From Trebouxia sp. TZW2008 (Eukaryota > Chlorophyta > Trebouxiophyceae > Trebouxiales > Trebouxiaceae): a DNA stretch of 64,000 bases. The DNA is taken from the NCBI GenBank assembly GCA_002118135.1, contig BDIU01000194.1:124001-188000 (forward strand). Reading direction: 5' to 3'. Below, in pieces: positions 3,501-63,480 of this stretch. Every line of letters begins with the position of its first letter. Position 1 is the first letter of the stretch. The notes beneath the pieces are model-generated. The model saw only the letters and a program-made list of their open reading frames with translations, had not been told where the DNA came from and made no database searches. A program made the translations under genes and the position numbers.

Positions 3501-6500
3501 CATGTATGACTCCTGAGATTTGAACTTGATGTTGCTCAATACATCAACATAAGGCTCTGTGACAGTGCAGGTGGACTATACTGGTTTCACCACCATCAAT
3601 GCTCAGCGATTTGGTCAGAAGTTTGTTGGGAAAGTAGCCAACCCACATGACATTTTGCTATGGCACAAAGCGCCTGTGCGCAAGACAAAGGTGAGTGATG
3701 GCTGCAACAAATGCTTTCACTTCAGTTTTTTGGTGGCCATGACTGTCATTTTCGGACAGTGTAAGCATTGAGTGTTTTGTATGGCATCATCTTCATACTG
3801 CTAGATGCATCTGCTTGGTCGTCTCTGACATACAGCAGAAGCTTGAAGTATACTTTGGCTCTGCCTCATCTGCAAGCATGCACACGTGTACTCAATCAGT
3901 CAGCTAGATCCAGTCAATCCTCAGTTGAAGAAATCAGTGAATACTGAGTTAGAGGTGCTGAGGCAATACTGCTCAGTCAATAATACTCAATTTGACAAAT
4001 ACAGTGAACAGTACTCAGTCATTACTACTCAGTCCTTGTCATGATTAGTCACTGGGCTGCGAGCGTGTGCATGACGCTTGCAGGCTCGAGGTGGGTTGTC
4101 ACAGGATTCAGGGCTGAGTGAGGGCATCAGTGCCAAAACCCTAGACAGCAGCCAACACTCAAGTCATAATACTCAGTCAGGCATCAGTCAGTAGTATTCA
4201 GTCAGTAGTGATAGGTCAGTAGTGATAAGTCAGTAGTATTCAATCGGTACGAGTCATTGAGTAACACTCACTAGTACTGAGTCAAGCGTGAGTGTTTGCA
4301 TAATGCTTGCAGGCTCCAGGCGAGGTATCAGAGAATGCAGGTCTGACCGAGGGCATCAGGCCTGAAGCCCTAGATGAGCGCCAAATTGAGGACCTGATTG
4401 CTGAGCACCTGAACCAGCACCTGGAAATCCTCCCAGAGCAAGACCTTGCCAATGCTTTGCATAACTTTGTTGACAAGGTCAGCTTGATGCATTCACGCAT
4501 CACATAGACTGACCAGGCAGGCTGTGGGATCCTGTGACTAAATACGGCCAAACGCAATGAACAACCTCTGCACAAGTCAGCCAATGCTTTGCAAACGTTG
4601 TGGTCACCGTCAGCTCGCTTGCCATGCTGACAGCACAAAAGTTAGATACTTTGCATAAAGATTTGCCTGTTCATCAGGGTGCATGACGCAAGCAGTGAAC
4701 AATTAGCCCAGTTGGGTATCTGAGCCCCTGCTATGGCAACATACGCACGCAAAGCCTGTGAGTACATCGCAGAGTGGAAGTGCTATAGCATAGCATGTTG
4801 ACCCAATTGAAGCCACTTGATCAATGCTTGCTCACTTGGCATCTCATCACAAGGTTTCCCTGCAAGACGCTATTGTGCGCAAATCTCTCAAGCATGCCTC
4901 CTATCCTCCACCAACCAAAAAGCTCAGCTCAAGCAGGCCTATGATGAAAAGACATGGCCACAAGTGTCACTCCGACTCATGCTCATGCTCACGCCCACGC
5001 TCACACTCACGCTCACGCTCATGCTAACGCTCAGATTCACAATCACGATCACGGTCAGACTCACTTTCACACTCGTGCGCACACATTCATTCACCTTCAC
5101 CCTCACTTTCTGTGTGCTTGCAGGATGAGAAGCAAGCGCTACATGAGTGTGTGCGAGCAGCCTTGGTAGAAACGCAGAATGCGGCAGTGGCAGACAGAGC
5201 AGCAGAGGCAAACGGGCAAGACGCTGATGTGGACGCTGCTGTCAATGCACAGATACAGCAGCGGCAAAATCAGCAGGTATAGCCTGACAGCTCAACCATG
5301 ATTACCATGCCATCTATGAATTGTTTTGCTACAGTGTTTATGGCAATGGCTACCCATTTACATGGGAGACATACAGCTGCTCAATCTCAACGCATAAGTT
5401 GGGTGGTTTTGCTGCTTGAAGGTAGAAACGCTGACATGAAGGCTGATGTGCAGTCAGCTCACGCCACTGCAGCTTCAGCAGCCAAAATATTGCCAAGCGG
5501 CCAAGCATTCTGACTGCAGTGGTACCTCGTGAGTGAGGACAATTTGATACGAGAACAGCGTTTGGTACGCAAAGCATTCTGTATATGCACTGTCATGCTG
5601 ATGCTGCAGTCAGCCCAAGCTGCCACAGCTTCAGCAGCCAGGATCCTGCCAGGCATACCAGCTGATCCAGGCCTACCACAACCTGATGGCATAGCAGTTG
5701 CGAAAGAAAGTGTCATGGTCCTTCATCCTTCCAGCCTGCATCACTTCATCGTTCCTGCTGCATGAAGGTAGAAACGCTGACGTTCTTACTGGCTCTGCAG
5801 TCAGCCCAAGCCGCCACAGCTTCAGCAGCCAGAATCCTTCCAGGCACCCCAGCTGATCCTGGCCTACCACAACCTAATGGTATAGTAGCCATGGAAGAAG
5901 ATGACTTGGCAGGTCCTTCATCCTCTCGACCTGCATCAGCAGGGCAGGGCAGGTCCACCTCTCGTCCCCCTACTGCCCCCTCCACCTCTGGCAGAGGGTC
6001 ACAAGCTACAGGTAACCCCATGTGCATTCTCAATCTGGGCACAGCTCAGAATGATATTAGCTGCAGTCAGATTCATCTGCACTCCACCTTGCTGAGGCGT
6101 CAAACCTTTCTAGACCTACATTGTCACCGGGCATTATCAAAGCCATGTGCATCCATGTCTGGCCTGCTCCTCTATTAACGCATCTGTTTGGCTGACTGTC
6201 TGTCTGTGTTGCTAGCTGTCCATCTGTTTTCCAGCTGGCCTGCTCCCTCTGTCTGTCTGTCAGTCATCATGTCATTTGAGCAGCTCAAATTGGCTTGTGA
6301 GGCTTGCAATGTTGTCTGCTTTGATGCCTGCTGCAAGTCAAGGGTATGAGTCGGGCTTGAATTAGCATTGCCAACTCTTGACATCTGGCAGGCTAACATG
6401 GTATCAGGCCCCTTCACAAGTGTTGTTTTGATTCTACAGGTCCTCCAGACAGCAGTAGAGGCAGGCAAGCTACACTTGGCGAGGCTTTTGGCAGAAGTCA

Positions 6501-8103
6501 GAGGAGTACCCAGCAGGTAGGTAAAATGTAGAGTAAACTTTGCGGTCAAACAGCTGACTGCCTCTGTATGCGCTCAGCTGAGCCCTTGCCCCAAACAAGC
6601 ACATTCATATCAGTGTGCTGGGCAGTGCCAACAATGTTGCGCGTGTCAAATTGTTACAAGCGGGGCCTGTCATCAAAGCCACCCTGCTGTGCTGAGGTTT
6701 GAACACTTCAGTAATGAATCCTTCATGGCACTTCAAGAAGTCAGATTTTTAATTTGTGAAAGGCCACATACAAACCTGCTGCAAGGTCGAAAGCATGTTG
6801 CGCATACACATACAACAAGATGCTGTCCAGGGTGACCTACCCAGTCAGACAGGAAGGGCGGCTGCCCCCAGGGGCCGGCGCGGCAGGGGTGCCTCCGCTA
6901 CAGCTGCAGCAACAACACCGCGGCGAGGCAGCGGCAGGCAAGCTGCACAGAGAGCCACAGCCTGTACTCAGCAGCAAACAAGCAGGTGCAAATTGGGCAT
7001 GTTGGCTAGCTCAGATTCATGGACATGTCAAGGTCACTTTGATCACTGCGCATGAGCTGCACAGACAGGCATGTGCATGTATATGACCTCACCATTTTCA
7101 GATTTGCATAGACAAGTAACACAAGGTGATAAGGCAGTGCTTCATTGCAACAAACTCTGCATTGTGAGCAAGTTTACTACAACCTGAGCATGGTTTGCTG
7201 TTATATAGCAGTCTCGAGACTGCACTGCGTTTGTGTGCAGTGATGTGGATGAGCCTTCTGGAAGTGACGCAGCTGATGACTTGATAGAGGAGGAGGATGA
7301 CGATGTCATCGACCTTGAAGATGAGCCTGTGACTACTGGTCAGTATCCAGACTTGCGTCTTTCAAGCACAAGCAGTTTGCTCTTGGCTATGTCCTGCCTT
7401 GGCAAGTTATGAACGCTGATTGTTGTCATCAAGCACTGTGTTCATGTTTCGGAGACAACGCACTTGAGGTTGCTTGCATAGCATCATGTGTCTCACTTTG
7501 CTTTGGCAATAGCTTGGCTTCAGCGCAAATGGCTGAGGCTGCTTTGTATGATACAGGCAGCAGGAAAAGAGCAGCCAAACCACCATTGACAACTATGGCT
7601 AGAAAACAAGGACCTGCTGCAGGTACAACATGACTGCTGCTATAAGTCTTCAGTATTGCAGCGCATCATCGTGACTTGTGACATTGGTTGGGCAACATCT
7701 TGTGTGCTGTTGATATTGTCCTGCTTCCTTTGCCATTAGCTGCTGTGAAATCAGAACAATCAGTGTTTAAGAAGCCCGCACAACGCTGGCTCCAGTCTGC
7801 TAGGCTTGTGGATGTTTATGATGAATTCTGCAAAGATCCTAAAAGAAAAAGCTTGTGGATGCCTTCTCAACTGCAGATGCGCAGTCAACAGCTCTGTTCG
7901 TGTCCTTTGCAGGCTCACAGGCGGCTCAGCCTGGCAGTGGATTCATAGTTGACAGTGATGATGAAGCCCAACCTGCTCCACAAACAGGCAGAGCTGGACG
8001 CAGAAGGGCTGCTGCCGGGATCTCACAGCGGTCAGGGTTGGCTCTGAATTCACAGGCTGGGACTTCCCAGCTGACTGCTAGAAGCTGGGGTGCCCCCCAG
8101 TGA
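526..8103 (+). CDS. MRE11: MRE11 double-strand break repair nuclease, 18 exons, about 779 aa
   Basis: Mn-dependent nuclease of the nuclear MRE11-RAD50-NBS1 complex; it resects double-strand breaks and acts in meiosis and telomere care. Exons: 526-545, 622-661, 730-971, 1085-1232, 1439-1495, 1674-1762, 2015-2195, 2672-2848, 3175-3324, 3571-3690, 4313-4477, 5124-5276, 5801-6011, 6440-6516, 6831-6985, 7241-7338, 7557-7622, 7913-8103. They total 2340 nt and keep phase from ATG to TGA. The start gives MSEDEHK followed directly by DTLRILVATDNHLG. Phosphoesterase motifs are intact: DNH, GGDLFHDNKPSR, GNHDDP, HQNR and GHEHE. ITQPGSS-like and VRPF segments follow, then a capping domain. The tail is acidic, then RG-rich (RGRRGRG), and ends with FIVDSDDE and RSWGAPQ. 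Size is close to human MRE11 (about 708 aa). Some 3' exons are assigned mainly by phase. Confidence 0.95.
3895..4280. repeat. CAGT/ACTCAGT-rich simple repeat in an MRE11 intron
   Basis: The intron between exons 10 and 11 is packed with variants of TCAGTAGTATTCAG and ACTCAGTC in imperfect tandem order. It flanks the decayed copy of exon 11 on both sides. Confidence 0.7.
4063..4160 (+). pseudogene. Decayed copy of MRE11 exon 11 start, with acceptor
   Basis: About 235 bp upstream of the real exon 11 acceptor (4312) lies a similar block: GCTTGCAGGCTC, then a GAGGT-like stretch, then GAGGGCATCAG and CCCTAGA. It matches the real exon start in order and spacing but diverges and leads to no usable donor. 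I read it as a relic of tandem duplication of the intron-exon junction. Confidence 0.7.
4972..5110. repeat. CTCACG/CTCATG hexamer repeat
   Basis: Imperfect hexanucleotide tandem (CTCACG, CTCATG, TTCACA) in the intron just before MRE11 exon 12. It creates open frames on both strands that are repeat artefacts. Confidence 0.85.
5408..5800 (+). repeat. Two degenerate tandem copies of the MRE11 exon 13 junction
   Basis: The block GGTAGAAACGCTGAC...CAGTCAGC...GCCACTGCAGCTTCAGCAGCC occurs near 5420, in part near 5600, and intact before real exon 13 (5764-5840). Each copy includes the acceptor CAG and the start of the exon. The middle copy reads into PADPGLPQPDG-like sequence and then loses the donor. 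Only the third copy continues to a GTAACC donor in the right phase. Confidence 0.8.
6187..6275. repeat. TGTC-rich simple repeat
   Basis: CTGTCTGTCTG runs occur twice within 90 bp in the intron between MRE11 exons 13 and 14. Confidence 0.6.
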
Positions 8104-63164: not shown

Positions 63165-63480
63165 CGACCTCCAAAAAGGAACCGCTGCAAAGCAAGAGTT
63201 CTTTTGAAGATCGAGGCACTGTAACAGGTGAATGTGGTCAGCCAGTGCAGTGCACAGCCCCAGGAAGCAGATGGGCAGATCTGTCTGTGTGCTGATGTAG
63301 CGCATGCGGGACACAATGACCTCCAGGATAGGACCTCTGCAGCACAAATGATGAACACTCAGATTGGACCTCAGCACAAGTGCACTCTCAACAGCGTAAT
63401 AACAATGGCAATCATGTACAGCACCCTTAATGACCTCCAGGACGCTGCCTCTGCAAAGCAACAGTCCCTTTGAAAAGTAA
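63165..63480 (-). repeat. Three upstream relics of the ASCC3 exon at 63060-62922
   Basis: A long copy at 63346-63230 reads GPILEVIVSRMRYISTQTDLP then CFLGLCTALADH. Short start fragments sit at 63185 (VPFWRSL) and 63452 (GSVLEVIKG). All keep the CTGCAG acceptor. The longest is almost identical to the real exon over its first 90 bases. Confidence 0.9.

Follow-up and report, generated by a model that had tools for sequence, protein, structure and literature searches.

Gene models in the window

The window analysed here is a stretch of 64,000 nucleotides (C186:124001-188000) from Trebouxia sp. TZW2008, a green alga of the kind found in lichens, and it contains MRE11, LSD1 and the 3' part of ASCC3. 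Introns of these three genes hold decayed copies of the edges of neighbouring exons, which we term relics. The relics are most probably the remains of short tandem duplications that fall at random with respect to the exon-intron junctions of these genes, that were likely made by break repair and that splicing likely hides.

Splice-aware gene models were built from Trebouxia-related proteins and comprise 58 exons in all (Table 1). The ASCC3 model was lengthened using 29 kb outside the window. In full it runs on the minus strand of the same contig from 38780 to 92776 in window coordinates, with 26 exons from residue 682 on, and the resulting 93 kb are referred to as the extended window. MRE11 extends past its model end at 7971 (the protein match continues to 8100), and both outer ends of the LSD1 model are approximate. 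The intron ends between exons 12 and 13 are weakly supported in both MRE11 and LSD1. The four junctions concerned were left out of the junction counts, which leaves 106, and the exons beside them were kept in the flank test, where slight exon sequence is thus scored as intron.

Trebouxia is among the best protein relatives of the ASCC3, LSD1 and MRE11 exons, which marks the host as a Trebouxia-like alga. An ASCC3 exon is 88% identical, over the exon searched, to a protein of Trebouxia sp. C0004, and an LSD1 exon is 91% identical to a protein of Trebouxia sp. C0005. An MRE11 exon reaches 91% with one further protein, 86% with Trebouxia sp. C0005 and 79% with Trebouxia sp. C0009. Pfam searches of read-through whole-frame translations (1-30 kb, plus strand) located the MRE11 and LSD1 exons, and on five single frames Pfam found a helicase domain alone. 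Neither Rfam nor a tRNA scan finds anything in the window. The gene models cover these three genes; the coiled-coil, kinase and CCDC77 regions named in the original prediction, which had been made from the letters of the window, were surveyed for local repeat pairs.

Copies of exon edges in flanking introns

Every exon was searched against the introns on either side of it (at most 3 kb, up to the next exon), and the best alignment per flank was compared with 30 dinucleotide shuffles and with the reverse strand, for 110 flanks in all. A same-strand copy of the exon is present at p < 0.01 in 31 of these flanks, where 1.1 are expected, and the reverse strand gives none (0/110). The proposal that adjoining introns carry ordered, decaying same-strand copies of exon edges, beyond what shuffled introns would yield, is therefore borne out.

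Relics occur beside 25 of the 58 exons and are concentrated in ASCC3, with 24 of 50 flanks positive and a relic at 20 of its 26 exons (10/12 within the window). LSD1 has 4 positive flanks of 28, and its three exons with relics (3/15) are exons 5, 11 and 12. In MRE11 (3/32 flanks, 2/17 exons) the exons with relics are exons 10 and 12. The original prediction named LSD1 exons 5, 11 and 12 and MRE11 exons 11 and 13, and its exon numbering may differ from the one used here.

All 31 relics come within 7 bases of the intron-facing edge of the exon. The 17 upstream relics start at most 7 bases from the acceptor edge, the 14 downstream relics stop at most 3 bases from the donor edge, and copies of the exon interior only are absent (0 of 31). 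A self-BLAST of the window gives 144 same-strand and 18 inverted pairs, with a median distance of 466 bp for the same-strand pairs. In the three genes the pairs divide into 154 intron-intron, 34 straddling, 16 exon-intron and 0 exon-exon, and the 16 exon-intron pairs also end at most 15 bases from a junction when compared with the model exon coordinates.

The copied DNA carries the intron side of the junction and the splice signals. The AG is retained in 11 of 13 acceptor relics and the GT in 10 of 14 donor relics, as had been proposed for the splice sites; 4 of the 31 relics ended 4-7 bases short of the edge and were excluded from this count. Among the 30 intron bases past the junction, 15.1 match on average at acceptors and 12.9 at donors, against 7.5 for random pairs. 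At ASCC3 exon 15, where the two copies lie 2 bases apart, 28 of the 30 junction-adjoining intron bases are kept. Identity by position is mostly 0.7-0.9 on the exon side and goes down to about 0.5 on the intron side, which is expected if selection holds the true exon while both intron copies drift. Since the intron side and the splice dinucleotides were copied, it was genomic DNA across the junction that was duplicated and not mRNA. Retro-copied fragments of spliced exons, considered as another source, are ruled out by the same features.

Several exons have more than one relic on a side. The steps can be regular (182, 364 and 545 bp at ASCC3 exon 6; 152 and 304 bp at exon 20), which suggests that two-copy repeats grew later. 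On 11 exon sides there are at least two relics; farther relics are less like the exon on 3 of these sides and more like it on 8, contrary to the proposal that decay increases with distance.

Table 1. Gene models, exon-edge relics and repeat arrays, in window coordinates
Feature	Position	Strand	Details
MRE11 gene model	620..7971	+	17 exons; spliced alignment to Trebouxia protein P0124
MRE11 exon 10 (4313-4477)	4061..4374	+	Acceptor-edge relic ~4084-4170, spacing 229 bp, AG kept
MRE11 exon 12 (from 5801)	5410..5952	+	Two acceptor-edge relics, ~5451-5506 and ~5610-5743
Local direct-repeat array	17206..18154		~181-bp spacing; kinase region of the original prediction
Local direct-repeat array	20195..21040		14 pairs; unassigned to a gene model
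LSD1 gene model	23333..31846	+	15 exons (two parts of one long exon merged); spliced alignment to P0121
LSD1 exon 5 (24709-24885)	24709..25125	+	Two downstream donor-edge relics, spacing 113 and 226 bp
LSD1 exon 11 (29345-29539)	29178..29962	+	Upstream acceptor-edge relic (157), downstream donor-edge relics (174, 347)
142-bp copy in later LSD1 intron	31589..31730	+	100% identical to 29856-29997 (exon 11 relic array), 1.7 kb off
Tandem pair	35923..36239	-	81% identity; CCDC77 region and strand of the original prediction
ASCC3 3' part	38780..64000	-	Exons 15-26 within window; spliced alignment to P0001
ASCC3 exon 25 (39656-39468)	39468..39806	-	Acceptor-edge relic 39717-39796
ASCC3 exon 24 (40839-40648)	39979..40839	-	Four donor-edge relics at 150, 315, 443, 642 bp
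ASCC3 exon 22 (42747-42592)	42592..43638	-	Five upstream acceptor-edge relics
ASCC3 exon 21 (45827-45687)	45687..46043	-	Acceptor-edge relic 45879-46018 with in-frame stop
ASCC3 exon 20 (46799-46602)	46263..46799	-	Two donor-edge relics at 152 and 304 bp
Local repeat array in ASCC3 intron	48087..50981		Inverted copies and perfect 62-bp tandem pair 49373-49499
ASCC3 exon 19 (51351-51180)	51180..51562	-	Acceptor-edge relic 51491-51544
201-bp direct-repeat array in ASCC3 intron	52716..56290		No match on other contigs
ASCC3 exon 18 (60654-60449)	60098..60654	-	Donor-edge relics at 154 and 351 bp
ASCC3 exon 16 (61949-61773)	61568..62117	-	Donor-edge relic 61568-61659 and acceptor-side relic 61962-62108
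ASCC3 exon 15 (63060-62922)	62922..63504	-	Adjoining acceptor-edge relic; copies 62965-63238 and 63241-63504

Other features of the window

The array at 48087-50981 contains 9 of the 18 inverted pairs of the window, and the junction side of the ASCC3 exon 19 relic stops at a CA microsatellite (51552-51594). The LSD1 template P0121 (Trebouxia sp. C0005, 1097 amino acids) continues into a part that matches the window at 32857-34126 and that we take to belong to the short-chain dehydrogenase family; the protein is either a chimeric annotation or a genuine fusion.

Strong local pairs are present at 17.2-21.0 kb and at 35.9-36.2 kb. A Pfam kinase match in the first of these regions (E = 0.0089) falls below the cut-off, and the stretch at 14-23 kb has no PDB match at E 0.01. 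The copies proposed for exon 9 of the coiled-coil gene were not recovered: the roughly 9 kb at 8101-17000 have no significant local duplication (best local pair E = 0.85), and their sole repeats are short minisatellites at 8682-8746, 14138-14226 and 14727-14876. The process is thus patchy.

Local direct duplications elsewhere in the genome

The searched genome has 68.5 Mb in 527 contigs. Repeat pairs were surveyed in 269 kb, made up of the extended window and 19 loci elsewhere in the genome (15 stretches and four others), one of which lies on the window's own contig. Pairs at most 3 kb apart number 328 on the same strand and 21 inverted, and those less than 500 bp apart number 224 and 3. The copies are therefore direct in orientation and local. 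Same-strand local pairs occur at 17 of the 19 other loci and cover 7.8% of their bases, and local inverted pairs occur at none (0/19). The window is denser: duplicated bases make up 25.8% of it, and in ASCC3, partly outside the window, the share reaches as much as 62% per 10 kb. The copying process is general in this genome, and the window is not a chance cluster. An assembly artefact is also unlikely, because 94 of 100 clusters of copies are less than 90% identical.

Of eight helicase exons examined elsewhere in the genome, four (L028, L030, L031 and L032) have copies; L030, L031 and L032 had been chosen because overlapping neighbours were already evident, and all three are positive. At L032 (G000 C44:78555-79187), where local copies are present, two neighbouring helicase-domain matches each contain a stop; this could be a broken gene, or one whose intact exon lies at another place.

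When the smallest spacing is taken for each cluster, 95 of the 100 clusters fall at 60-240 bp; the median is 143 bp and the upper bound is about 240 bp. Spacings below 60 bp are near the limit of detection, and the upper end is not limited by detection. Median spacing is 155 bp in the extended window (n = 50) and 125.5 bp elsewhere (n = 50). The alignment covers at least half of the spacing in 77 of 100 clusters, whose copies therefore count as adjacent (tandem). Identity is at least 90% in 6 clusters, 85-90% in 17, 80-85% in 22, 75-80% in 25 and below 75% in 30.

Intron length

Detectable copies account for 24,050 of the 59,813 intron base pairs of the three genes (40%), in agreement with the idea that tandem copies act as intron filler. 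None of the 15 introns shorter than 300 bp has a detectable pair, and in the six introns longer than 3 kb 56% of the bases lie in pairs. The duplicated fraction correlates with intron length (Spearman 0.76, P = 1e-11, 55 introns), a coefficient that does not prove cause and that relates two quantities that are not independent. An ASCC3 relative, P0009, has 2201 residues in 21.7 kb according to its record header, compared with 54 kb here for residues 682-2195. For Asterochloris glomerata, of the same order, PMC6652019 gives mean lengths of 4240 bases for genes and 1400 bases for mRNAs, and puts repetitive DNA at about 5%.

Origin of the duplications

Break repair is the likely source of these copies. 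Staggered DNA breaks would be filled in and rejoined, leaving side-by-side duplications whose copies are mostly 60-240 bp apart and which, in the three modelled genes, hit exon edges at no higher rate than other positions. A copy that straddles a junction likely survives because splicing can still use the intact exon and drop the extra copy with the intron, so that the event would be near-neutral. Unequal exchange or slippage may later expand two-copy repeats to arrays, and this growth could be why some introns are long. A break-repair origin is plausible in that direct, local and size-limited duplication fits the fill-in and joining of staggered breaks, although slippage or lagging-strand errors are also possible.

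Small tandem duplications can arise during double-strand-break repair through fill-in by CST and Pol alpha-primase, and breaks with overhangs may stem from nearby nicks on opposite strands, with short direct duplications as the proposed result (PMC8355091). The copies described here are likewise short and direct. They differ from the duplications in that paper, which in the human genome are shorter than 100 bp and for which breaks with 50-bp overhangs in mammalian cells are described, in that their spacing is 60-240 bp, they are diverged and we infer the mechanism.

A tentative alternative, which we consider possible but somewhat unlikely, is replication slippage or mis-processing of Okazaki fragments, in which case the 60-240 bp limit would follow from how long lagging-strand pieces are or from the spacing of nucleosomes. 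Nucleosomes and Okazaki fragments are of about this size, and the bounded unit spacing speaks for such a process. However, the spacing distribution is broad and lacks a sharp nucleosome-like peak, and its lower end coincides with the limit of detection.

A process aimed at exon-intron junctions, such as R-loops or breaks made at splice sites during transcription, is very unlikely as the source of the exon-edge copies, even though every relic includes the intron-facing edge and 25 of the 58 exons carry one. To measure placement, the junction map was circularly shifted round each of the three modelled genes and compared with the local same-strand pairs. These pairs span 19 of the 106 junctions where 27.8 are expected (sd 4.5), which is a deficit if it is anything, and the share of shifts reaching 19 is 0.986. 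When arrays of more than three pairs are removed, 16 of 99 junctions are spanned against 15.9 expected (sd 3.6; share 0.54). In these genes tandem copying therefore does not favour exon edges over other positions, although a copy anchored in an exon should be the more readily detected, and the excess of intron-intron over straddling pairs points the same way, so that targeting of junctions is largely refuted for the three genes. All 19 spanned junctions have their relic in the intron, as had been proposed, because a straddling tandem duplication whose intact exon is still used must leave it there. Random placement and survival suffice to give this picture. Exon-anchored pairs should remain visible longer, and the equal rates may conceal some selective loss. 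The original prediction is thus partly confirmed: its observation largely holds, and its interpretation is partly supported but fails on the focus at junctions and on decay with distance.

It is highly improbable that the copies are duplicated, mutually exclusive exons that are still in use. Retention of AG or GT in 21 of the 27 placeable relics would favour this, but it lies only weakly above neutrality (P = 0.01 to 0.13, depending on the neutral expectation used), and selection for relic splice sites, which was considered, is not claimed. The relics are dead as coding sequence. Frame-shifting gaps occur in 26 of 31, which leaves the open frame broken, and stops make up 12 of the 1172 codons aligned. 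Mismatch to the exon at codon positions 1, 2 and 3 is 0.192, 0.195 and 0.311, which suggests that since duplication the relic has gained about 0.19 neutral changes per site and that the remaining mismatch at position 3 represents silent change in the exon. Relic spacing modulo 3 is also unconstrained (10, 6 and 11; n = 27), so the extra copy has no part in the reading frame. Functional extra exons are ruled out by these gaps, by the codon-position mismatch and by spacings that are not tied to multiples of three.

Fragments of a mobile element, an introner or a dispersed satellite can be all but dismissed, since the exon relics copy each gene's own exon and, in the 68.5 Mb, none of six DNA queries has a match outside its own contig, in a search that skips very common words and may miss diverged dispersed copies. 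The queries were the two long arrays at 48.1-51.0 kb and 52.7-56.3 kb, whose existence might favour such a source, two other regions of direct repeats, ASCC3 exon 15 together with its relic, and one relic from LSD1.

Besides the limits of this search and the dependence between duplicated fraction and intron length, several results count against duplication by break repair as set out above. Three of the six queries returned the query alone and missed known copies inside it, and another query, an LSD1 coding stretch, has a 41-bp match on a second contig. Among the five best-scoring helicase exons elsewhere, one (L028) is clear and two are borderline. In 23 of 100 clusters the copies align over less than half of their spacing. 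The 142-bp copy in a later LSD1 intron is on the same strand as its source but not in tandem with it, and no target-site duplication is evident in the flanking bases inspected. Young copies are scarce (the 6 clusters of at least 90% identity), contrary to a steady process; a past burst, the loss of fresh repeats or assembly collapse may explain the shortage. Break repair is not told apart from replication slippage or Okazaki errors, as the copies are too old for microhomology to be read, and the perfect 62-bp pair at 49373-49499 has 3 shared bases only and is a single pair.

Relation to known duplications and introns

Duplication within genes is reportedly ubiquitous, and Gao and Lynch (2009) are said to have found internal gene duplications to be common in eukaryotes. 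Introner elements are a mass supply of intron sequence whose copies are dispersed and mutually similar. The duplications described here resemble them in supplying intron sequence on a large scale and differ from them in that the six stretches queried match their own contig only, within the sensitivity of that search.

A further likeness is to the Rogers model and the potato RdRp gene, in which a tandem genomic duplication across an intron-exon boundary creates a new intron (PMC4974935). In both cases the duplication crosses one boundary and includes the splice signals. As that paper describes it, potato RdRp is one event that gives a new intron, whereas here the extra copies sit in existing introns, at 20 of the 26 exons of one gene, and similar repeats occur at 17 of 19 other loci. 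The same paper also notes an 83-bp duplication that lies entirely inside an intron. No literature on growth of Trebouxia nuclear introns by tandem duplication is among the matches listed. Boundary-crossing duplication is already in print for single genes (PMC4974935), and as far as seen it is the density of the copies and the exon-edge record that are unusual here. The phenomenon is large in scale and known in kind.

The reasons for long introns are only partly understood, and in these genes local direct copying visibly supplies 40% of intron sequence. Exon edges, which are held by selection, act as reference copies, and duplications that include them should stay recognisable and datable when intron-intron copies have faded. 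Because placement is random, duplicated exon edges may be tolerated by splicing to about the same degree as duplicated DNA within introns. A broader idea, which at present seems doubtful, is that in Trebouxia-type lichen algae a duplication-prone mode of repair, perhaps of breaks caused by drying and rewetting, makes tandem duplications of 60-240 bp the main engine of intron growth. If such a repair regime exists, then splicing would make duplication of exon edges nearly free, and the relics would be a datable fossil record of break repair throughout the genome.

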